NCBI GenBank assembly: GCA_012522795.1
Contig: JAAYJT010000064.1
Span: 1-41,677, forward strand
Length of the DNA stretch: 41,677 nt
Source: Bacteroidales bacterium
GTDB taxonomy: Bacteria; Bacteroidota; Bacteroidia; Bacteroidales; JAAYJT01
Reading direction: 5' to 3'
Shown here: piece by piece, positions 6,147 through 41,677 of the stretch
How the letters are laid out: each line of letters starts with the position of its first letter
How positions within the stretch are numbered: position 1 is the stretch's first letter
Made by a program: the position numbers and the translations under genes
Notes under the pieces: model-generated
Told to the model about the DNA's origin: nothing
The model's database searches: none
Seen by the model: only the letters and a program-made list of their open reading frames with translations

Positions 6147-7601
6147 ATGTCAGCAAACTATAGAGAATTAAGCAATACAAATGATATGGCAATTGTCTTT
6201 GGCAGCTTGTTTCATAAATTCGCCAAAAGCTTTCCTGACAGTATAAAAGCCCTGCCTTTATCAGGTTCCCCGAGAAAATATTACAGAGTAAAATCCGGCG
6301 ATATTTCTGTTATTATCTCGAATAATTCTGATATTCAGGAGCATAAAGCATTCCTGGATTTGAGCTATCATTTTCATGATACCGGACTTCCTGTACCTCG
6401 TATACTTTATTCAGAACCTGATACAGGTATTTGCCTGATTGAAGATCTGGGAGATGTAACTTTGCTGGAACGTATAAATAAGGAAAGAACTCTACCTGAT
6501 TTTAATGATTTGCTTATTATTCATTATCAAAAGGTATTGACCGATTTGATCCGGTTCCAACTTGATGGAGATAAAGGCTTGAATTATAATAATTTGCCTG
6601 CGCCAGAATTTGATGAGCAGGCAATGTATTGGGATTTGAATTATTTTAAATACTACTTTTTAAAACCATCAGCAGTAGTGTTTAATGAAAAGTTGCTGGA
6701 GCTTGATTTTAAAAAACTATTGTTAATTCTGCAACAGGAGAAGCTTAAAGGTTTTATGTACCGTGATTTTCAGGCACGTAATATCATGTTGCACAATGAA
6801 AAATATTATTATATTGATTATCAGGGTGGCCGTAAAGGACCATTGCAATATGATGTTGTATCATTGCTTTTTCAGGCAAAAGCGGCTATCCCTGACTATT
6901 TGAAAGAACAACTGCTTGATTATTATATTCAGGAACTTGAAAAGCGTATTACGCTTAACAGGCAGGAATTCAGAGTAAGGTTCAACTATTTTGTGTTGTT
7001 GCGATTATTGCAGGTTATGGGAGCTTATGGTTTCAGGGGTTGGTTCGAACGAAAAGCTCATTTTCTTGAAAGCATTCCTTTGTTACAGCCTAATATTAAG
7101 TGGCTGCTTGATAATCAGCTTGTTATTGATGATATGCCGGAGTTAAAAAGAGTATTATCTGAAATTTTGTTTAAGATGGAAAATAATTTATTGGTTCAGA
7201 CTCCAAAACTTACAATTGAAATTAATAGTTTTTCCTATCGCCGTGGTATTCCTTATGATTCAAGCGGTCATGGTGGTGGTTTTATATTTGATTGCAGATT
7301 GCTGCCCAATCCTGGATTGCTTGAACCTTATAAAAAGTTAACAGGTCTTGACAGCGAAGTGATACTATTTCTTAAAAAAGAAGATGATGTTAAAGATTTT
7401 ATTGAGAACGCTGCCACTATTGTTAAACAATCAGCCAGAAATTATCTGAAGTCTGGTTACACCAATTTACAGGTGAATTTTGGATGCACTGGCGGCCAGC
7501 ATCGTTCAGTATATTGCGCTGAGAAATTAGCTGAGATCCTGAAGCAACAAACTGATATTTCAATAATTTTAAAACACAGAGAGATCAATATTCTAAAGTA
7601 A
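6147..7601 (+). CDS. Amino-sugar kinase (APH/AmgK-like) fused to RapZ C-terminal domain
   Basis: A 484-residue two-domain protein. Residues 1-340 form an aminoglycoside phosphotransferase/choline-kinase fold, with catalytic loop YRDFQARNIM (205-214, Asp207) and metal-binding IDYQGG (Asp224). This resembles AmgK, the anomeric MurNAc/GlcNAc kinase of cell-wall salvage. Residues about 355-484 match the C-terminal domain of RapZ: SFSYRRGIP (361-369), FDCRLLPNPG (381-390), GCTGGQHRSV (446-455) and a final HREINILK. In E. coli that domain binds glucosamine-6-phosphate. The RapZ N-terminal P-loop domain is absent and replaced by the kinase. It is the first gene of an operon with a MurU-like partner two genes on, which supports an amino-sugar substrate. 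Domain identities are seen in the sequence; substrate and regulation are inferred. Confidence 0.88.
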   Translation: MSANYRELSNTNDMAIVFGSLFHKFAKSFPDSIKALPLSGSPRKYYRVKSGDISVIISNNSDIQEHKAFLDLSYHFHDTGLPVPRILYSEPDTGICLIEDLGDVTLLERINKERTLPDFNDLLIIHYQKVLTDLIRFQLDGDKGLNYNNLPAPEFDEQAMYWDLNYFKYYFLKPSAVVFNEKLLELDFKKLLLILQQEKLKGFMYRDFQARNIMLHNEKYYYIDYQGGRKGPLQYDVVSLLFQAKAAIPDYLKEQLLDYYIQELEKRITLNRQEFRVRFNYFVLLRLLQVMGAYGFRGWFERKAHFLESIPLLQPNIKWLLDNQLVIDDMPELKRVLSEILFKMENNLLVQTPKLTIEINSFSYRRGIPYDSSGHGGGFIFDCRLLPNPGLLEPYKKLTGLDSEVILFLKKEDDVKDFIENAATIVKQSARNYLKSGYTNLQVNFGCTGGQHRSVYCAEKLAEILKQQTDISIILKHREINILK

Positions 7602-7682
7602 ATGGATATGCCTTGCTGACAGCTTTTTCCGGAAACCAATAAATTCTAAACTTCTAATAAAACTTATTTCTATACCACTAAA

Positions 7683-8066
7683 ATGATTGACGAAGTTATT
7701 TCACAATTTTCATCGCTACAGCCTGAAAAATATTATGACAATGCTGAAATAGTGCATTTGACTGCAAAGCAGATTATCAAGGATTTTGCAATGTTTGGTC
7801 TGGACATACAATTTTCGGGCAACACTGAATTTGCATATATGGAATTGATGGGGCAAATGGTTGAAAGCATTCAGGGCTTATTGCAGCATGACAGTGCAAG
7901 ACTGTTTGCGCTTATGTATCAGATTGATCTTAGTCAAACGGCTGTAGATAAATGCCTTGGATCATCTAAAAACATTGCAGCGAATCTGGCTGACCTGGTC
8001 ATACGCCGCGAGATGCTGAAAGTGTTAACAGTAAAATATTTTAAAGAGCTAAAAAATAAAGATTAA
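7683..8066 (+). CDS. Conserved small protein of unknown function in salvage operon
   Basis: A 127-residue soluble, apparently helical, acidic protein with no signal peptide, membrane segment, cysteine pairs or catalytic motif that I recognise. It starts 81 bases after the kinase-RapZ gene and ends four bases before the MurU-like gene, so it is very likely co-transcribed and probably translationally linked to the latter. The position between two enzymes of a predicted pathway suggests an accessory or regulatory partner, but that is inference only. Confidence 0.75.
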   Translation: MIDEVISQFSSLQPEKYYDNAEIVHLTAKQIIKDFAMFGLDIQFSGNTEFAYMELMGQMVESIQGLLQHDSARLFALMYQIDLSQTAVDKCLGSSKNIAANLADLVIRREMLKVLTVKYFKELKNKD

Positions 8067-8070
8067 AGCT

Positions 8071-8778
8071 ATGCCAAAAGCCATGATACTTGCTGCCGGT
8101 CATGGAACACGGCTTCTGCCATTAACTCTTGACCAGCCCAAAGCATTGGTTTTAGTTGCCGGTAAGCCTATGATTGTTCATGTTATTAATCGACTGAGAC
8201 AATTCGGGTTTGATGATATTATTGTAAATCTGCATTATCATGGTGAAAAATTGAAGCAGTTCCTGAGTTCTGAAAAGTTTGAAGGCATGACTTTTACTTT
8301 TTCTGACGAAAGCGAACAGTTACTTGATACAGGTGGCGCTATTAGTAAAGCTAAATGGTTTTTTAATGATGAAATGCCTTTTCTGGTTCATAATTGTGAT
8401 ATTATTTCCTATGTTTCTCTTGACAAAATGATTGAATTTCATGTTGATCGCAAAGCTATAGCTACTTTGGCTGTGAGTAAAAGAAAAACATCTAGGCTTT
8501 TGGCATTTGATCAGCAGGGAAATCTTATTGCCCGCTTTGATCCAGCGATGAACAATAACGTTAAAGCTCTGGCATACAGTGGAATTTGTGTTCTGGATAA
8601 AAATATATTTTCCTTTATGCCTGAGAAAGGAGCTTTTTCTATTATTGATATTTTTATAAAAGCTTCAAAAAGTTCTATAGTTGCTGCTTATGAGCATGAA
8701 CCGGATATATGGGTGGATGCTGGAAGCATAAAAAATATTGTAAAAGCCGAACAATTGTTGAAAAATGTTCATCTTTGA
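8071..8778 (+). CDS. MurU-like sugar-1-phosphate nucleotidyltransferase
   Basis: A 235-residue GT-A-fold nucleotidyltransferase. The N-terminal signature LAAGHGTRLLPLT (8-20) and PKALVLVAGKPMI (23-35) bind the nucleotide; LLDTGGAI (84-91) and HNCD (107-110, Asp110 the likely metal ligand) follow. The length and lack of a left-handed beta-helix tail resemble MurU, which converts MurNAc-1-phosphate with UTP to UDP-MurNAc, rather than GlmU or RfbA. It lies in an operon with an AmgK-like kinase, as amgK and murU do in Pseudomonas, so together they would convert a free amino sugar to its UDP form. Exact sugar and nucleotide are not proven by sequence; other sugar-1-phosphates remain possible. Confidence 0.82.
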   Translation: MPKAMILAAGHGTRLLPLTLDQPKALVLVAGKPMIVHVINRLRQFGFDDIIVNLHYHGEKLKQFLSSEKFEGMTFTFSDESEQLLDTGGAISKAKWFFNDEMPFLVHNCDIISYVSLDKMIEFHVDRKAIATLAVSKRKTSRLLAFDQQGNLIARFDPAMNNNVKALAYSGICVLDKNIFSFMPEKGAFSIIDIFIKASKSSIVAAYEHEPDIWVDAGSIKNIVKAEQLLKNVHL

Positions 8779-31997: not shown

Positions 31998-33612
31998 TCA
32001 ATATATTGACTTTAGCCAAAAAGATATGCATAGTTTGTTAGATGTGAGCATTTTAATTTGGGTAATCCATTAAAAAAGCCTATTACTGTTGATGATAACC
32101 ATATAATATTCATGAGATGCAGTTATGGATAATTGCTCTTGGGAGTATAGATTAAGCAATTTGAAACTTTATAGTAGTGGCAGTTTAATATTGATTCTTC
32201 TATCATCTTTATCTTACAAGTATTATTTGTGCCATGAATATCATTAAAAATAACTACAGTTATTTTGTGGTAAAATTGGTTTAATATAATGAATTATTAA
32301 AATTTGGTCAAATAAAACTGCTAATATATTAATTCAGCTAAATGTTCTGAATTACTTAATGGCTCACGGATTACAAATATTAATATATCTATATATTTAG
32401 TGCAATGTTTGAGTTAATAATATTTACTACCTTACTTAGCATATTAATATGAATAATGAATAAGTATTGCCAAAATAATATCCATATTTGACATAAACAC
32501 TAAATCATAATAAAAACCTTGCAATTTAACTTATAATTACATATTTTAGCTTTTCAACAAAACATAGAAGTTGGAGAGTCAACAATATACAGCTTATTTT
32601 AAATTAGACTAAGTATAAATTTAAATCAAGTTGAGAAAAAAACTTGCTTTCAGTTATTTCGTGATTTAATTTTGTGGCGCACATTTGAACGTCACTTATC
32701 CTGCGTATGGGGAATGACTAGAAATATATTCATGATTTCATTTGTTCATAGTAAAATATTGTTTTGTATCAAATTAATTAAAATATAGAATTTATTATAT
32801 ATGTTATTATTACGAACTATAAAATTATTGTAATTATGTAAAAATCAGTCCTTATTGTTCAATATTGAATAATTTTTAACTTGAATATAATTCTACCAAC
32901 ATGATATTAATTATAGTATAAATCAAGTGCACGTTTGTTTTCAATCGTTAATGAATTAAGTTAAGTATAATATTTTAGAATACATAGAACCATTGCGAAA
33001 TTCAATTTTCTTGCTATGTCGTAAATTGACACTATTATGAATATTTTAATAGCTAATGTATGGATATAAATATTTAATGCTACATAGAATGTGTAAATGA
33101 GTATTACTACACCTATTTAGCTTAAATTGCTTTTTAGTGATTATAAAGCATAACTAATTCTGCTATTTTCATTTATGATTGTCGCTTTAACAACTAGTGT
33201 AAAGATATAGAATCTTTGAGAATATTTTGATTTGTAGATTTAACTAGTGACCTTTTAAATTGATTATTTTATTTGTTTTGGACGTGATTTCTTTCAATAA
33301 ATATGATTTTGTTATGATTGGGAAAACTACTTCAGTGATTCAAATCCCGCAGGCTAAGAATAACAATCCTTATCCGATACTGGCTAAATCCAATTATCAA
33401 AAAAGAATTGGGAGTATGACTTTGATAAGTGTGATAAAATATTTTTATGAACTGACAAATTTACTGTGTTGTTTGTATCAGGGGCTAATGTGATAAATTT
33501 CTGATATCCTTTATAATTTAAAGTAAAAAGGGCAATACAGGTTAAGATATGACCATAAATGTTTAAGATAATATAAGAAGTAAATAAAAATAAAATATAA
33601 AAAATTTATGCC
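31998..33612. other. Very AT-rich 1.6-kb region without a recognised gene
   Basis: The stretch between the IS remnant and the giant secreted protein is far more AT-rich than the rest; for example 32821-32880 holds only 10 G or C in 60 bases. The longest frame, 33260-33493 from a TTG, has no recognisable similarity. A -7-like TAATTTTG occurs at 32667-32674 with no gene after it and may be chance. No tRNA, CRISPR or clear terminator is seen. It may be decayed insertion DNA or a long regulatory leader. Confidence 0.55.
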
Positions 33613-36600
33613 ATGAGTAAAACTTACATTTTAATTTCCAAATTAGTAGAAGTTCTTGCAAAAATGCAAGTGATCTTATTAAACGGTATTTTTTTACTGC
33701 TTATGCTTTTATTTCAGATTCCTGTATATGGGCAGGATGTACCTGTTATGGACAATCTCGATACGAAGACTGCTTCCGGAAGTGGTACTTCACTTAATAT
33801 TGAAAGGCCTCATAATGTACTTGAAGGTGATTTGATACTATTATTATTCACCCAACAACTAAGCTCCAGATTTGGTGATAGTGGTTTTACAACTCCTGAT
33901 GGTTTTAAGCAAATAAGAGTTGAGCATGCCAGTTCAAGCTCATCAACACCACAGATTGTAGCATTTTACAAAATAGCAGGTGAAAATGAACCAAAAGTGT
34001 ATACTAGTACTGTAACAGAGTATACTACCACTCCCAACTGGAAAGCGGTAGCAATGCGTGTTACCGGCCATGACCCTGTTAGTCCTATTGCAACAAATAG
34101 TGGTGCCAATTCAGGTAATACTTTGGTTCAATCACTTAATATTCATTCACTCTCAACCATTAATCAAAACTCTCTATTGATTGGTGCTGTTACAGTTAGA
34201 AGGGAGATTAGGAATGAAAAAACACCTGATGGCATAAAGGAGCTTTGGTTTCTTAACGGCACAGGTAACGAAGATAACAATTCAAATGCTCCCGCTTTTT
34301 ATGGAGGGATAGAACCCATTGAAGAAGCCGGTGCTACAGGAACACGTTCCTTTTCATGGACTGGTTATGCCAAAGCTGCCGGGCTGATGTTTGCCATAAA
34401 CCCGGATGTTAGTACAGTTGATCTGGAAATCACTAATGTGCCTGATAATGCAACTCCTGCATATAGTAGCCAAATCTCCTTTACAATCACTGCGAATAAT
34501 AACTGGTTTAACAGTGCTACCGGTGTAAAAGTAAGCTGTCCGCTACCCAATGGATATGTTTATCTGTCACATAGTGCTTCTCAAGGAAATTATCATCCTA
34601 AAACAGGTATATGGATTATTGGTAATTTGAATAATTATGCCAGTTCTGAACTTTGCATTACAGCAATTGTAGCTTGCCCGGGTAATCTGGAATATGATTT
34701 TACTGCATCTATTTCGGGTGCTCAACCTGATAACGATCCAACAAATAACAATGCTACAGCTAACGTTAAGCCTTTCGGAGATTGTCCGGTAGTAGCCATT
34801 GATGATTATGTTGAAACAATTCAGGGTAACTCTGTTATATTTAATGTGTTAACCAACGATATCGGTGATTTAGACTCTGAAGGCTTTGATGACTCTAATA
34901 TAGTAAGCAACCCGATTTTTGGAAATATTGTTGTTGGCTCCAAAGGTGATATAACTTACACACCTATAGGTAATTATATTGGTAACGACTCGTTTAAATA
35001 TAAAATTTGCAGTATTCACAATCCGGAACAATGTAGTGAGGCAACAGTATATGTTACCGTAAACTCTGATTTATTTAATGTATGTTATGATGCAGTACAA
35101 TCCCACATATATTATCTTCCTTTTCCTGAGCATCCCAATTTCTTGTTAAAAGCCTTACGAAGTGCTGCGAATCAAAATCCAAATCAAACAACTGTCAGAA
35201 ATATTGTAAGTATTAAAGTAAACTATCCTAAGACCATTATTATATATGACCATTGGGAAGACGGTTATGAAGCCGACATAACTGAGCCAACCCAATCTAC
35301 CACTGAAATCTGGGGAGATGGAAATCCTGCAAATGGCGTGGCACCGGGATATCCTGACGACATCATTCCTCCGGGCGGTCAGATTATTATTGACAAAACA
35401 TTTGCCTATAACCGAAATCAGTTACAAATAGAGTATGATGGCAGGGACAAGATTTTTTCGAGTTCTGATATTACAATCTCAAAGATAACAGGAAGTAATG
35501 CAGACTTTAATGTTCAGAACGTCAAAACCGATGTGATTGATGTAAGCCGATTTGGAAAATCGTTTACTATTGGCTTTGGCGAAGACCTGACAAAATTAGG
35601 TAATGCACATAATGCTTTTAGATATGTTGGGTTATTTGTAAGAGCCTCTGAAGACAACACTTTAGTAGAATTGGATTATAATGGTGACGGAATAATTGAT
35701 GTAACTAAAATCCTGAATGAAGGAGAGGTATGGCTATATGACGGAACAGCATCTACACCCGGAGACGTTAATAATGACGTAAATAAGTATAATGATATTA
35801 AAACCGGCGCACAACTTATTGCTGACAAACCTGTAGGAGTAGATATTGTTTTTGGAGGAATAGATAACTATGGAACCCGGAATATATATATATTGCCATC
35901 TAAGTTTTATGGGAGCAAATATATTACACCGGTACATACAACACTCAAAACTGCACCTGTAGTAGCCTATTTTTATAATAGTTCGGACACACCGATGACT
36001 TTAAAATGGGAAGCCGGCACTGGTCAATCAGGTGCGATAGAAATACCTGCAAAAGGTATTAATTTTTTAACTCTTAATCAGGCAGCAGGATATGAGTTTG
36101 AAAGTGAGGATGGCAGGACCTATACAGCCATTGCAGTTGTTGACGCAGATAATGAAGGGAGGGATTATGATTGGGCATATCCATTGGTACCCGTAGAAAG
36201 ACTTACTAATTTTGCCAGTATTGCATGGGCTCCAGGTTCTAATGATTTAAGTGCCAATTATAATCCTATCTGGGTTACACCTACAAAGAATACCACAATT
36301 TATGTAAAATGGGATGGTGATATTACCAGTAATACAGGAAATATTAGTCCGTGCGGTATTCCGTTTGATGCCAATTATCCGGTAGGAAGGTTACAATCGT
36401 TAAAGTTATACGATAATTCCAGCAATGATAATGATCAATCCGGAGCTTCGATATATACCTGTGATGGTACGACTTTTTCTGCCGTTTGGGGTCAGGATGC
36501 CAATGCAGGGAATCCTACACCTATTTCAGGGGTAGCGCTTGATGTTGGTTACCTGATGCTTCCACGTTGTCTGGATTTTTTAATACTTGCTAATGATGAC

Positions 36601-39600
36601 AGGGCAGTTACTGAACCTGAGATTCCGGTAATAATTGATGTATTAAGCAATGATGCCGGTTTTTTGTGCACTTTGGATCCCGGATCTGTAACTACAGATG
36701 GCTTTTTACAACCAACAGGAGGCAATGTTGTAATTAGTGATGATGGCATCATAATTTATACACCTAACCCGGGTTTTACAGGAACCGATGAGTTTGAGTA
36801 TCAGGTATGCTCAAAAGAATATCCTCATATATGTGAAATAGCTCTGGTTAAAGTAATTGTACGTCCATGTGACAATGAAGCTTCATCGGCAGGAGTCAAT
36901 ATTGTAAAAGGTCGCGTGTATATAGAACAACTACCGGACAATGGGCAATATGATGGTGAGGATTTTGTATGTGGTGTAGCAGTTGAATTATATGCCGACA
37001 ACAATTGTAATAATGAAATAGATAGTGGCGATCAGCTAATTGAAACCATTGTTAGCGATGTTAATGGAAGGTTTGATTTTGTGAAAACAGGAACAAAATA
37101 TGCAAGAGATATTTTCCCAACATTACATGATTATGATGCAAATCAGGGAACAATAAACTGGTCAGGTGCCTGGTCAATAAATAATAATGATCGTGTATAT
37201 TTACTAGAAGACCCCATTCCTTCTGATGCTGATAATATAGCGTTGTGTTTTAGTGGTAATAATAATTATGCTCAACGAAGTCTGGAGTTTATAGGTGCAA
37301 CCAGTGCAGTATTGAAATTTAGCTATCGTAGAGAGGACCTTAAGAATGCAAATGATAAGCTCATTGTGAGTTTTAATGGGCACACACAGATTGAGATTGA
37401 TAATGCTGGAAACATAAACACAGATCTATTTTATCATGATATGGTAGTATCCCTTTCGAACATTTATGCTGATGCTCCTAACTTACTCAAATTTGAAACT
37501 AACGGAACAGTTGGCAACAATAGTTATTTTTTTATTGATAATGTAGAACTCATATATTTTCCTGCTTGTTATATTGTAAAAGTGGATACTTCTATTACAA
37601 ATGGTAAGTTTGAAGCTGCTGTTTTGAATGAGGGAACAATTACATTTGACAATCAGGGTTATTGTTCAGATGATGTTTATTTGGGAGTGCGAGCTTTACT
37701 CACTGCTGTGGATGATGAGGCAAAAGTGATATCTGAGGTTCCCAAAGTAATTTATGTTTTGGCAAATGATATTGGCAACCCTGATCCAGCTAAAGTTTCA
37801 ATTCACACATCACCTTTAAATGGTCAAATAGAAATTAATCCGGACGGTAGTATTACCTATATTCCAGATCCTGATTATGAAGGACCAGACTCATTCAAAT
37901 ATACAGTTTGCAGCGCTGATGATCCTGATGTCTGCAGTACGGCTACTGTGAACCTGAATGTTACCTGTATTAGTATTCCGGGAATAAATGTTATTAACGG
38001 TATTGCTTTTGGCGATATTAATGGAAATGGCTTGCATGAAACAGGTGAAAATGGCCTACAAGGAATAGAAATAGAACTATATAACGATCTTAACGGAAAT
38101 GGAGAACTGGATAATGGTGAGCCTTTGCTACAAACAATTACAACAGATGCTACAGGAGGCTACCAGTTTGAATTAAATTGCAATCTTCTTCCTGAACACA
38201 CGGTTGCCGATAATTTCAACACTCGTTCATATAGCAGGAATGATGGAACAGATAATTGGATAAGTAACTGGGAAGAAACAGGCGATGATGGTTCACCAAC
38301 GAGCGGAAATATTTTTATAACTTTAGATGGTAAATTATGCATAATAAGAAAGGATGTGTCAGACTCCCGATCAATTTGTCGTACTGCTGATTTAAGTGGG
38401 TCTGTGAGTGCCACTCTTACATATACATATGATAAATCCAAATTTATAGACCATATTTATGAATTTGTAGATATTGAGATATCTACTAATGGTTATGACT
38501 GGACACAGTTAAAGAGATATTCAGGAGCTGCTCAAGCCAGTGGAACAGAAACATTTGATATTAGCGAATATATTTCACCTACTACCAGTATTCGATTTTT
38601 AGAGTCTAGTATTTCACTTTCTTCAACTGATAAATCTTTTACCATTGATGATTTGCAGATTAGTTTTTTCATTTATACTCCTCACAGTAATAATGGACTT
38701 TATGTAGAAGATAATTTTTCAGTTCAGTCTTATGACAACAACCATGGAACAATTAATTGGAAAGGTAAATGGATAGAAAATGATGATCCAGCCAATGACC
38801 CGACGAACGGAAGCATCTTTATCACACCAGAAACTAAGTTGAGAGTCCAGGGTGATGGTTCTAGTAATAGCAGGTCAATTAGACGGGAAGTAGATCTAAG
38901 TAATGCAGCCTTTGCTACTTTAGTATTTACATATAGCAAATCTTCATTTAGTCATGAGTCGAACGATTGGGTGAATATATGTGTGGCAGCTGATCCTTTG
39001 ACAAGTAATTTACAGCAACTGAAAAGAATTTCAGGTGTCGCTGCCAGTAATGGAACTGAGGTTATCCCTATTCCTTCTATTTATTTTTCAGAAAATACCA
39101 CTATACATATTTTTGAATCTAATAATATTAATTTCACTAGTAATGAATATGTATTATTCGATGACATTACGATTGTTTTTAGTCACAAAGACTATATAGT
39201 TAAAGCTAAAGAGCCTTTGCCGGATGGTTATAGCTTCTCACCCGGAGCATCAGATTATCATCATGTTAGTTTTAATAATGATTGTGGTATAGGAAGTTGT
39301 TCAAACAATTTTGCACTTTGGGCAGCGGATCTGGAAATAGAAAAAAAAGTGAATAACAACAATCCCGAAGTAGGGAGCACCGTAACATTTACCATAACTA
39401 TTATTAATAAAGGACCGAGTAATGCTACTGAAGTTTCGGCAAAAGATGTACTTCTAAACGGCTATACCTATGTTTCACATTCAGGTGATGGAAGCTATAC
39501 TCCTTCAACTGGAGAATGGGAAATTGGCGATCTGGAATTTAACGAAAAAGTCACTCTGTATATAGTGGTTAAGATTAATGAACCCAGTGAGGATGTGGAT

Positions 39601-41677
39601 TATTCCAATAAGGCTGAAATCATTAATTCAGTTCCTGGGGACCCGAACCCGGATAATAACACTTCAGTTTTAGATAATATTGAACCCAAATGTTCTCCAT
39701 TATGGGAAATAAGAAAAACTGCAAGGACTGTTTTTTTTGATTCTGTGGGTCAAACTATCGAATATGATATTATTGTTAAAAATACTGGTAATGTAAGTAT
39801 TGGGAATATTGTAGTTACCGACAATGATGTAAATACCGGTCCATTGTATGTAGCTGGCGATAGTAACGAAAACAACAGATTGGATATTGATGAAGAATGG
39901 AAATACTTTGCTTCCTATGAGATAACTCAGAATGATTTAGATAACTTTGGTTTTGTAAATCTGGCTACTGCGAGTGGTACAGTGTTTTGTGGTATATTGG
40001 ATGATGTTGAAGATCGCGAAACTGTTGGGGCACATACTTACCCGGGTCTTGTTTTGAAGAAAACAGCCATTTCTGGTGCAAACTACTCGCAAGTTGGCGA
40101 CATAATAAAATATGAGTATAAAATAATAAATACTGGAAATGTTACTTTTTATTGGTTCGATATTTATGACGATAAAATTGGTGAGCCTTTTATTACAATT
40201 GAAGAACCAATTGCGCCTGGAGACTCTTTAATAGTTACTGCTGAATATTCCGTGGTTGAAAATGATATAACAAATGGATATATAACAAATAATGCAAGAG
40301 CTGAGACTTTGTTTAATGATTGTTACTTAACCGCAGTGGATGATGAAACTGTGTACGGTGGTTCGGCTGATTTATCAATTAGTAAAACAAGTACTCCTAC
40401 CATTGCAATAGCAGGACAAAAACTCATTTATTCCATTGTTGTAACAAATAATGGTCCTACAATGGCAAATGCACCTGTCATAACAGATGCATTACCAACG
40501 GGCTTGGCAGCTATACGATATCGCGTGAACGGAGGCAGTTGGATAAGTGGTTGGGGCGGCAGCTATACGCACCCTTCGGCATTGCCGGCAACTTCCGGTA
40601 ATAATACCATTATCATTGAAATTGAGGCTAATTTAGCCATTAATCATTGCGATAGTTTGGTAAATACTGCTACTGTTTCATCCACCACAACAGACCTTGT
40701 GTCGACAAATAATACTGTAACAATCACAACAACAGTAGAAGATAAAGAGGCTCCGAGCATCACCTGTGCAACACCAGCGGCTTACTATGCTGCTGATGTC
40801 GGAGTATGCACATGGATTGTTCCAGACACCAGCCTTGATCCCTTAAACACATCAGACAACTGCTCTGTAGCATCTGTCACCAATGACTTCAATGATTCCG
40901 GCTCACTTAAGGATGCAAGCTTCCCGCTTGGAGAAACTTTAGTTGTATGGACTGTTACCGACGGCTCGGGCAACACAGCTACCTGCTCATATACTGTAAC
41001 TGTTAAAGACGAGCAAGATCCGAGCATCACCTGTGCAACACCAGCGACCTACTATGCTACTGATGACGGACAATGCACATGGACTGTTCCAGACACCAGC
41101 CTTGATCCCTCAACCGATGATAACTGCTCCGTAGCATCTGTCACCAATGACTTCAATAATTCCAACTCACTTAAGGATGCCATTTTCCCGCTCGGAGCTA
41201 CTGAAGTCATTTGGACTGTTAAAGACGGCTCAGGCAACACCACCACCTGTAGTTTTACAGTTGTAGTTGAGGATACTGAAGTACCTGTATTTACTATAAT
41301 TCCCCAAGACCTTACCGTTGAATGTGACGGCTCAGGCAACATCGAAGAATTGACCGTATGGCTCAATTCCCATGGTGGTGCGGCTGCAACTGATAACTGC
41401 GGTGAAGTTACCTGGTTACATAACTTTGAAGGATTAAGTGACCTTTGCGGAGCAACAGGCGCGGCAACAGTAACCTTTACCGCAACCGATGATTGTGGAA
41501 ACTCCACAACCACAACAGCTACATTCACTATTGAAGACACCACCCCGCCAGCATTGACCTGCCCGGCAAATATCAGCGTAAATGCCGATGAAGGCAAGGC
41601 TTATGCAACCGTAAGCATTGCAGTTCCACAAGCCAGTGATGATTGCGGAAGCGTGACTTTAGTGAACGACTTTACCG
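33613..41677 (+). CDS. Giant secreted repeat protein (DUF11/SdrD_B/cadherin-like/HYR), 3' end outside window
   Basis: One uninterrupted frame of at least 2688 codons runs from ATG 33613 past the window edge. Signal segment to about residue 41 (ending VYGQ); Met18 (33664) would give a more typical signal. Approximate order: N-terminal beta domain (45-265), DUF11-like (269-391), cadherin-like with VLTND (393-482), a region faintly like IgGFc-binding repeats (490-985), cadherin-like (991-1086), SdrD_B-like split by module R1 (1095-1361; R1 1170-1316), cadherin-like (1363-1453), SdrD_B-like split by R2 and R3 (1457-1905; R2 1532-1685, R3 1698-1856), four DUF11-type domains (1905-2375), then HYR repeats (2377 onward, three complete and one partial). 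Cell-surface adhesion or a filament is likely. A T9SS or CHU_C tail is expected beyond the edge but not seen. No -7 box is found upstream. Confidence 0.9.
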   Translation, partial: MSKTYILISKLVEVLAKMQVILLNGIFLLLMLLFQIPVYGQDVPVMDNLDTKTASGSGTSLNIERPHNVLEGDLILLLFTQQLSSRFGDSGFTTPDGFKQIRVEHASSSSSTPQIVAFYKIAGENEPKVYTSTVTEYTTTPNWKAVAMRVTGHDPVSPIATNSGANSGNTLVQSLNIHSLSTINQNSLLIGAVTVRREIRNEKTPDGIKELWFLNGTGNEDNNSNAPAFYGGIEPIEEAGATGTRSFSWTGYAKAAGLMFAINPDVSTVDLEITNVPDNATPAYSSQISFTITANNNWFNSATGVKVSCPLPNGYVYLSHSASQGNYHPKTGIWIIGNLNNYASSELCITAIVACPGNLEYDFTASISGAQPDNDPTNNNATANVKPFGDCPVVAIDDYVETIQGNSVIFNVLTNDIGDLDSEGFDDSNIVSNPIFGNIVVGSKGDITYTPIGNYIGNDSFKYKICSIHNPEQCSEATVYVTVNSDLFNVCYDAVQSHIYYLPFPEHPNFLLKALRSAANQNPNQTTVRNIVSIKVNYPKTIIIYDHWEDGYEADITEPTQSTTEIWGDGNPANGVAPGYPDDIIPPGGQIIIDKTFAYNRNQLQIEYDGRDKIFSSSDITISKITGSNADFNVQNVKTDVIDVSRFGKSFTIGFGEDLTKLGNAHNAFRYVGLFVRASEDNTLVELDYNGDGIIDVTKILNEGEVWLYDGTASTPGDVNNDVNKYNDIKTGAQLIADKPVGVDIVFGGIDNYGTRNIYILPSKFYGSKYITPVHTTLKTAPVVAYFYNSSDTPMTLKWEAGTGQSGAIEIPAKGINFLTLNQAAGYEFESEDGRTYTAIAVVDADNEGRDYDWAYPLVPVERLTNFASIAWAPGSNDLSANYNPIWVTPTKNTTIYVKWDGDITSNTGNISPCGIPFDANYPVGRLQSLKLYDNSSNDNDQSGASIYTCDGTTFSAVWGQDANAGNPTPISGVALDVGYLMLPRCLDFLILANDDRAVTEPEIPVIIDVLSNDAGFLCTLDPGSVTTDGFLQPTGGNVVISDDGIIIYTPNPGFTGTDEFEYQVCSKEYPHICEIALVKVIVRPCDNEASSAGVNIVKGRVYIEQLPDNGQYDGEDFVCGVAVELYADNNCNNEIDSGDQLIETIVSDVNGRFDFVKTGTKYARDIFPTLHDYDANQGTINWSGAWSINNNDRVYLLEDPIPSDADNIALCFSGNNNYAQRSLEFIGATSAVLKFSYRREDLKNANDKLIVSFNGHTQIEIDNAGNINTDLFYHDMVVSLSNIYADAPNLLKFETNGTVGNNSYFFIDNVELIYFPACYIVKVDTSITNGKFEAAVLNEGTITFDNQGYCSDDVYLGVRALLTAVDDEAKVISEVPKVIYVLANDIGNPDPAKVSIHTSPLNGQIEINPDGSITYIPDPDYEGPDSFKYTVCSADDPDVCSTATVNLNVTCISIPGINVINGIAFGDINGNGLHETGENGLQGIEIELYNDLNGNGELDNGEPLLQTITTDATGGYQFELNCNLLPEHTVADNFNTRSYSRNDGTDNWISNWEETGDDGSPTSGNIFITLDGKLCIIRKDVSDSRSICRTADLSGSVSATLTYTYDKSKFIDHIYEFVDIEISTNGYDWTQLKRYSGAAQASGTETFDISEYISPTTSIRFLESSISLSSTDKSFTIDDLQISFFIYTPHSNNGLYVEDNFSVQSYDNNHGTINWKGKWIENDDPANDPTNGSIFITPETKLRVQGDGSSNSRSIRREVDLSNAAFATLVFTYSKSSFSHESNDWVNICVAADPLTSNLQQLKRISGVAASNGTEVIPIPSIYFSENTTIHIFESNNINFTSNEYVLFDDITIVFSHKDYIVKAKEPLPDGYSFSPGASDYHHVSFNNDCGIGSCSNNFALWAADLEIEKKVNNNNPEVGSTVTFTITIINKGPSNATEVSAKDVLLNGYTYVSHSGDGSYTPSTGEWEIGDLEFNEKVTLYIVVKINEPSEDVDYSNKAEIINSVPGDPNPDNNTSVLDNIEPKCSPLWEIRKTARTVFFDSVGQTIEYDIIVKNTGNVSIGNIVVTDNDVNTGPLYVAGDSNENNRLDIDEEWKYFASYEITQNDLDNFGFVNLATASGTVFCGILDDVEDRETVGAHTYPGLVLKKTAISGANYSQVGDIIKYEYKIINTGNVTFYWFDIYDDKIGEPFITIEEPIAPGDSLIVTAEYSVVENDITNGYITNNARAETLFNDCYLTAVDDETVYGGSADLSISKTSTPTIAIAGQKLIYSIVVTNNGPTMANAPVITDALPTGLAAIRYRVNGGSWISGWGGSYTHPSALPATSGNNTIIIEIEANLAINHCDSLVNTATVSSTTTDLVSTNNTVTITTTVEDKEAPSITCATPAAYYAADVGVCTWIVPDTSLDPLNTSDNCSVASVTNDFNDSGSLKDASFPLGETLVVWTVTDGSGNTATCSYTVTVKDEQDPSITCATPATYYATDDGQCTWTVPDTSLDPSTDDNCSVASVTNDFNNSNSLKDAIFPLGATEVIWTVKDGSGNTTTCSFTVVVEDTEVPVFTIIPQDLTVECDGSGNIEELTVWLNSHGGAAATDNCGEVTWLHNFEGLSDLCGATGAATVTFTATDDCGNSTTTTATFTIEDTTPPALTCPANISVNADEGKAYATVSIAVPQASDDCGSVTLVNDFT
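40741..41280 (+). repeat. Near-identical tandem HYR-encoding repeat
   Basis: Two adjacent HYR units, offset by 267 bases, share long identical DNA blocks, for example CCGAGCATCACCTGTGCAAC at 40753 and 41020, and GTAGCATCTGTCACCAATGA in both. The next HYR units (41281 onward) are much more diverged, so this pair is a recent duplication. Confidence 0.85.

Follow-up and report, generated by a model that had tools for sequence, protein, structure and literature searches.

The locus examined here raises the question of what a domain known from a bacterial RNase adapter does when it is joined to an enzyme of cell wall salvage. In a 41,677-nt contig from a Bacteroidales bacterium (JAAYJT010000064.1; this whole stretch is referred to as the window), a single forward-strand gene at positions 6147–7601 encodes a 484-residue protein in which an AmgK-like sugar kinase of the APH fold is followed by the C-terminal domain of RapZ (denoted here as RapZ_C), as indicated by the open reading frame, Pfam, NCBIfam and an AlphaFold2 model. 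A first-pass annotation of this DNA had regarded RapZ_C as a direct sensor of GlcN6P acting on the kinase. The observations described below favor another answer, namely that, in many Bacteroidota and their relatives, the RapZ_C domain tied to a salvage kinase bears a closer resemblance to the missing phosphatase step than to a sensor.

Architecture of the Fused Protein and Its Neighbors

The core of the kinase matches Pfam APH over residues 37–262 (6255–6932, forward strand; E 4e-9), within a kinase fold spanning approximately residues 1–350. The catalytic motif RDFQARNIM (6762–6788, forward strand), which contains D207 and N212, is followed by IDYQGG, which contributes D224, and R206, D207, N212 and D224 were invariant in both alignments constructed (A1 and A2). 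The protein consequently displays the AmgK-type combination of an APH fold with the catalytic Asp/Asn pair and the Asp of IDxQ, reminiscent of the RDF(Q/H)xRN...IDxQ motif of Pseudomonas AmgK, with which it also shares the linkage to a MurU-like gene. It departs from the Pseudomonas enzyme in carrying (or, in other genomes, adjoining) RapZ_C and in its score with the AmgK model NF045759, which amounted to 69.3 bits against an equivalog cut-off of 550. The first-pass assignment of the kinase can be retained in this qualified form; AmgK models, albeit below their cut-off, were the only NCBIfam models matching the kinase part. In the predicted structure (pLDDT 92.7 for the whole protein and 94.1 for RapZ_C), the kinase part was closest to 3csv (Z 29.8, 2.5 Å, 310 residues), and its further structural matches included sugar kinases, NahK (4ocv) among them.

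RapZ_C occupies residues 355–480 (7209–7586, forward strand; Pfam E 1.2e-33) and is complete, covering positions 1 to 120 of the 121 in PF22740 with 116.3 bits against a cut-off of 27, whereas the Pfam search of the 484-residue protein yielded no match to the RapZ P-loop family. The presence of an APH kinase fused in one reading frame to an entire RapZ C-terminal domain devoid of the P-loop domain, as initially annotated, was thus confirmed. The modeled domain superimposes on the E. coli RapZ C-terminal domain (CTD; 5o5s) with Z 20.4 and 1.3 Å over 123 residues, and the next folds, corresponding to PFK and kinases, appear at about Z 6. RapZ and AmgK were the top NCBIfam models for the fusion, and the former (NF003828) gave 109 bits against an equivalog cut-off of 244, below the level that defines the RNase adapter.

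Downstream, a MurU-like nucleotidyltransferase of 235 residues is encoded at 8071–8778 on the forward strand. Its best NCBIfam model is MurU (NF045761), with 126.4 bits and E 1.5e-36 against an equivalog cut-off of 250; the terms "AmgK-like" and "MurU-like" are used here because these scores fall below the equivalog cut-offs. The proposed operon with a MurU-like gene holds as far as linkage is concerned, but the two genes are not directly adjacent: a 127-residue reading frame that the first-pass annotation had missed intervenes (7683–8066, forward strand). This frame keeps its position between the fusion and murU in three relatives (G297, G310 and G302), with 33–65% identity, and its product gave no Pfam or NCBIfam match and no convincing relative in the PDB.

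An Old and Nearly Obligate Pairing

A sample of 296 genomes drawn from the phylum was scored for RapZ_C, the kinase, MurQ and AnmK. RapZ_C was found in 36 of them, exactly once in each, and none of these 36 matches lay in a frame of the size of classical RapZ (P-loop plus CTD, approximately 280–295 residues). All 36 genomes contained the kinase, which was fused to RapZ_C in 27, encoded by a neighboring gene in 7 (L043 and L060–L065) and unlinked in 2 (L056 and L059). A MurU-like gene adjoined in 27 of the 36, so that both the fused architecture and the murU linkage proved to be conserved across genomes.

A separate, wider scan was restricted to the best 80 of 587 kinase loci, and is therefore biased towards close relatives; two of these loci repeat genomes of the 296-genome draw. 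Among these best 80 of 587, the kinase frame was found in 79 (77 fused, one split and one cut by a contig end), RapZ_C accompanied the kinase in all 78 interpretable loci, and MurU lay within 700 bp in 49 of the 79 with a kinase frame. The taxa represented include Bacteroides, Phocaeicola, Tannerella-labelled MAGs, Calditrichota, Ignavibacteria, Elusimicrobia, Acidobacteria and Neomarinimicrobiota. A chance event or an assembly artefact can be dismissed on the basis of 103 other fused copies (26 in other genomes of the draw and 77 in scan loci, a few of the loci being the same genome counted twice). In one family (f5), RapZ_C is a stand-alone gene placed between the kinase and murU genes, and the distribution of fused and single forms on the kinase tree requires five changes, indicating that both domains have parted or joined repeatedly. 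The pairing of kinase and RapZ_C is, therefore, old and near-obligate, whether fused or split.

A Conserved Phosphate Cradle in an Altered Pocket

In E. coli RapZ, residues H190, T248, G249, H252 and R253 form a pocket that binds sulphate or malonate (PMC5737377), C247 adjoins this pocket, and the change of H190 to Ala abolishes function (PMC9841335). When 114 RapZ_C copies were aligned with the E. coli RapZ-CTD, C247 and T248 were present in 114 of 114 copies, and G249, H252 and R253 in 113 of 114. In the fusion, these residues belong to the sequence GCTGGQHRS (7482–7508, forward strand), where Cys447 and Arg453 are the equivalents of C247 and R253. In contrast, H190 is replaced by Gly in 112 of the 114 copies (within NPG at 7308–7316 of the forward strand in the fusion), the next residue, W191, is Arg or Lys in 112, and a Gly-rich loop absent from E. 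coli RapZ has been inserted (GHGGG at 7266–7280 of the forward strand in the fusion; family consensus GNGGG). Asp is found at the positions of E. coli D176, D182 and D202 in 110–114 of the 114 copies. Four of the five residues of the E. coli GlcN6P/phosphate pocket are, thus, kept and the fifth is lost, which means that the correspondence with the RapZ pocket initially assumed is valid for the phosphate cradle (T248, G249, H252 and R253) but not for H190.

Some of the basic RNA-contact residues examined have also diverged. R238 is Phe in 109 of the 114 copies, K251 is Gln in 110 and K194 is usually lost, whereas K170 (mostly K/R), R184 and R196 (mostly K) have for the most part survived; F181 and D182, both required for RapZ-CTD dimerisation (PMC5737377), are invariant. 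The loss of H190, the basic residue beside it and the new loop point to a sugar ligand other than that of E. coli, and these same three changes leave direct sensing of GlcN6P, as first proposed, unsupported. A fixed cradle combined with uniformly altered ligand and RNA contacts argues, at the sequence level, for a phosphorylated ligand different from GlcN6P, and the altered RNA contacts make RapZ-type RNA binding unlikely. As a separate observation, the fusion in a Spirochaetia-labelled MAG (L113, 2199–3611) has a degenerate cradle, CTQGQRRAV, and its RapZ_C is possibly inactive or altered.

The cradle has a second aspect. GCTGGQHRS fits the pattern C-x2-G-x2-R-S, its Cys being present in 114 of 114 copies and its Arg in 113, and in the model it forms a strand–loop–helix unit, that is, the C-x5-R-S/T loop after a strand by which PTPs and dual-specificity phosphatases (DSPs) are recognized. 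A PTP-like character and a possible hydrolytic activity had already been proposed for the E. coli RapZ loop (PMC7199280), and Islam et al. reported that the C247S version was as inactive as C247A and described density for a probably transformed ligand (PMC9841335). The resemblance to cysteine-dependent phosphatases is confined to this loop between strand and helix. A one-to-one hhalign comparison with bacterial DSPs aligned exactly the C-x2-G-x2-R stretch, albeit insignificantly (E 0.18, probability 0.3%), and the structural similarity was at background level (Z 5.2 and 4.8); neither comparison gave significant support for homology between RapZ_C and DSPs, and the fold is RapZ/PFK-like.

RapZ_C Follows the Predicted Capacity for MurNAc-6P Formation

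The relationship between RapZ_C and MurQ was tallied by hand over the 296 genomes and evaluated by a Fisher test: outside family f18, kinase plus RapZ_C occurred in 20 of the 21 MurQ-less genomes versus 16 of the 210 MurQ-positive ones, counts that come from genomes sharing ancestry (f18 being one family). The exclusion of MurQ was complete in family f17 apart from G009, and not significant in family f35. AnmK gave 25 strong matches and one weak match among the 36 RapZ_C genomes, and 9 of the remaining 10 presented a strong match to a BadF-family kinase of about 300 residues. When two of these BadF kinases were compared with the PDB, one had the MurNAc/GlcNAc kinase 8zo3 as its best match (1.4e-31) and the other had hexokinase 2e2n first and 8zo3 second. 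Most of the BadF kinase loci read have an AmpG-like permease gene after the kinase and some a GH3 gene, in the manner of murK-ampG-nagZ-like operons; L158–L161 and L163, from genomes without MurQ matches, show the order BadF-family sugar kinase, AmpG-like permease and sometimes GH3 (NagZ-like). A MurNAc 6-kinase of the AnmK or MurK type is, in this way, found in 35 of the 36 RapZ_C genomes, in which MurQ is often missing. The exception, G230, combines RapZ_C with MurQ and gave no match to AnmK and no strong match to a MurK-type kinase.

In G009 and in family f18, where 63 of the 65 genomes have the kinase, this enzyme is not accompanied by RapZ_C. AnmK was found in none of these genomes, and the BadF type of about 300 residues in none of the 30 genomes with a RapZ_C-free kinase that were tested; some f18 genomes carry a different BadF protein of about 270 residues. 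In G009, which lacks matches to AnmK, MurQ and BadF kinases alike, the kinase (L146) is a relative of the fused kinases that no longer carries RapZ_C and stands directly before murU. Almost every f18 operon read has genes for a NamZ-like exo-muramidase and a transporter after those for the kinase and MurU; most of the loci L149–L157 show an AmgK-like kinase without RapZ_C and then MurU-like, NamZ-like and SLC5-type transporter genes. A chlorosome-like small protein encoded nearby suggests that f18 probably corresponds to green sulfur bacteria. NamZ frees unphosphorylated MurNAc; it was likewise found in the majority of RapZ_C genomes and, consequently, does not discriminate by itself. The combined distribution of AnmK, BadF kinases and NamZ indicates that RapZ_C occurs in genomes able to generate MurNAc-6P and is missing from those in which MurNAc seems to be delivered without a phosphate. 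Taken with the phosphatase-type loop, this makes a catalytic role no worse a fit than a sensory one.

The genome from which the window derives follows this pattern, with AnmK and MurA present and no match to MurQ or to a BadF kinase. Its only match to the Gph-type HAD family is partial (147 residues), whereas most other genomes tested encode full-length HAD proteins with the potential to serve as MupP. Because several HADs are present elsewhere, HAD content was discarded as a general proof that MupP is absent, and it is informative for the window's genome only.

A Putative Bifunctional Salvage Enzyme

These observations can be integrated by assuming that the fusion is a bifunctional peptidoglycan-salvage enzyme, in which RapZ_C supplies a putative MurNAc-6P phosphatase step to the AmgK–MurU route. 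RapZ_C would hold the phosphate of MurNAc-6P in the Cys447-x5-Arg453 cradle and remove it by cysteine-phosphatase chemistry, replacing MupP and serving either as a part of the kinase or as its neighbor. The attached AmgK-like kinase would then add a phosphate to C1 of the released MurNAc, and conversion of the resulting MurNAc-1P to UDP-MurNAc, bypassing MurA and MurB, would fall to the MurU-like enzyme. We infer the substrate of the kinase, the phosphatase activity and the identity of MurNAc-6P as its substrate from the near-obligate pairing in fused or split form, the repeated separation of the genes, the invariant Cys and Arg and the genome pattern. Against this reading stand the 16 MurQ-positive RapZ_C genomes, G230, the background-level similarity to DSPs and the possible MupP-like HADs. 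A rough probability of 45% is assigned to it, a figure kept low by, among other factors, the shared ancestry behind the genome counts.

The idea of a sensor can be maintained in a modified form, in which the binding of GlcN6P, GlcNAc-6P or MurNAc-6P to RapZ_C would adjust the fused kinase allosterically. The E. coli RapZ-CTD does function as a sensor, its KD for GlcN6P being 10 nM as measured by SPR (PMC7073468); the retention of most of the pocket is in line with this proposal, and a covalent tie to a pathway enzyme suits regulation. However, the replaced His and the inserted loop speak against GlcN6P itself, so that a sensor would more likely recognize another ligand; binding alone leaves the invariance of the Cys unexplained, and a catalytic step accounts as well or better for the repeatedly separated genes and the genome pattern. 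A sensory function is, in our opinion, rather unlikely. The invariance of that same Cys, for which no structural need is known, also weighs on the notion that RapZ_C keeps RNA binding or merely dimerises the kinase. The conserved dimerisation residues and the basic positions still present would agree with such a role, which we consider improbable given the missing P-loop domain and the loss of R238, K251, H190 and, in most copies, K194.

A phosphatase-like cradle might alternatively act on, or bind, GlcNAc-6P or the 1-phosphate products of the kinase itself, in a futile or proofreading cycle. In Pseudomonas, AmgK phosphorylates the anomeric position of both MurNAc and GlcNAc (PMC5371407), and the BadF kinases, judging from their best PDB matches (a MurNAc/GlcNAc kinase or a hexokinase), may produce GlcNAc-6P. 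By itself, such a cycle does not account for the RapZ_C-free kinases in genomes where a MurNAc 6-kinase was not found, and it appears improbable.

The proposed bifunctional enzyme can be compared with characterized systems. Recycling in Pseudomonas depends on MupP, an HAD phosphatase that acts between AnmK and AmgK (PMC5371407). The same kinase and uridylyltransferase steps are implied here, and the window's genome likewise has AnmK but no MurQ; the difference lies in MupP being a separate, unrelated protein, where RapZ_C is proposed for the same step. E. coli RapZ shares the CTD fold and the C-T-G-G-x-H-R-S cradle, but the fusion lacks its P-loop domain and H190, contains the additional loop and is paired with a salvage kinase. 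According to the accessible part of one report, which does not mention a RapZ domain, AmgK and MurU from Tannerella forsythia, another salvage pair from Bacteroidota, show activity upon expression in E. coli (PMC13041923). The fusion is found together with murU in two Tannerella-labelled MAGs (L122 and L138), and if the T. forsythia AmgK is the fused form, the kinase activity of this family has already been demonstrated.

A literature search retrieved no paper naming RapZ together with AmgK, none that presents the fusion as a conserved system and no enzyme described for the phosphatase step of MurNAc salvage in Bacteroidota. The domains and the pathway were already known; as far as found, RapZ_C had not been assigned to the MurNAc-6P step before. 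If correct, this assignment would fill that step in a route that feeds UDP-MurNAc around the target of fosfomycin. It would also offer, through a lineage in which the domain is bound to a single metabolic pathway, a candidate substrate and reaction for a domain whose cysteine is essential even against Ser and in which a transformed ligand has been seen. A broader and more tentative conjecture, which we hold with considerable doubt, is that RapZ_C is at root a cysteine-dependent amino-sugar-6-phosphate phosphatase, acting on MurNAc-6P in Bacteroidota and related phyla, and that, in its E. coli relative RapZ, catalysis gave way to sensing and RNA control.

Apart from this locus, the window contains an open frame of at least 2692 residues (33601–41677) that runs past its end. 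With a 264-base repeat near 40752–41240, it looks like a gene for a large repetitive secreted protein.
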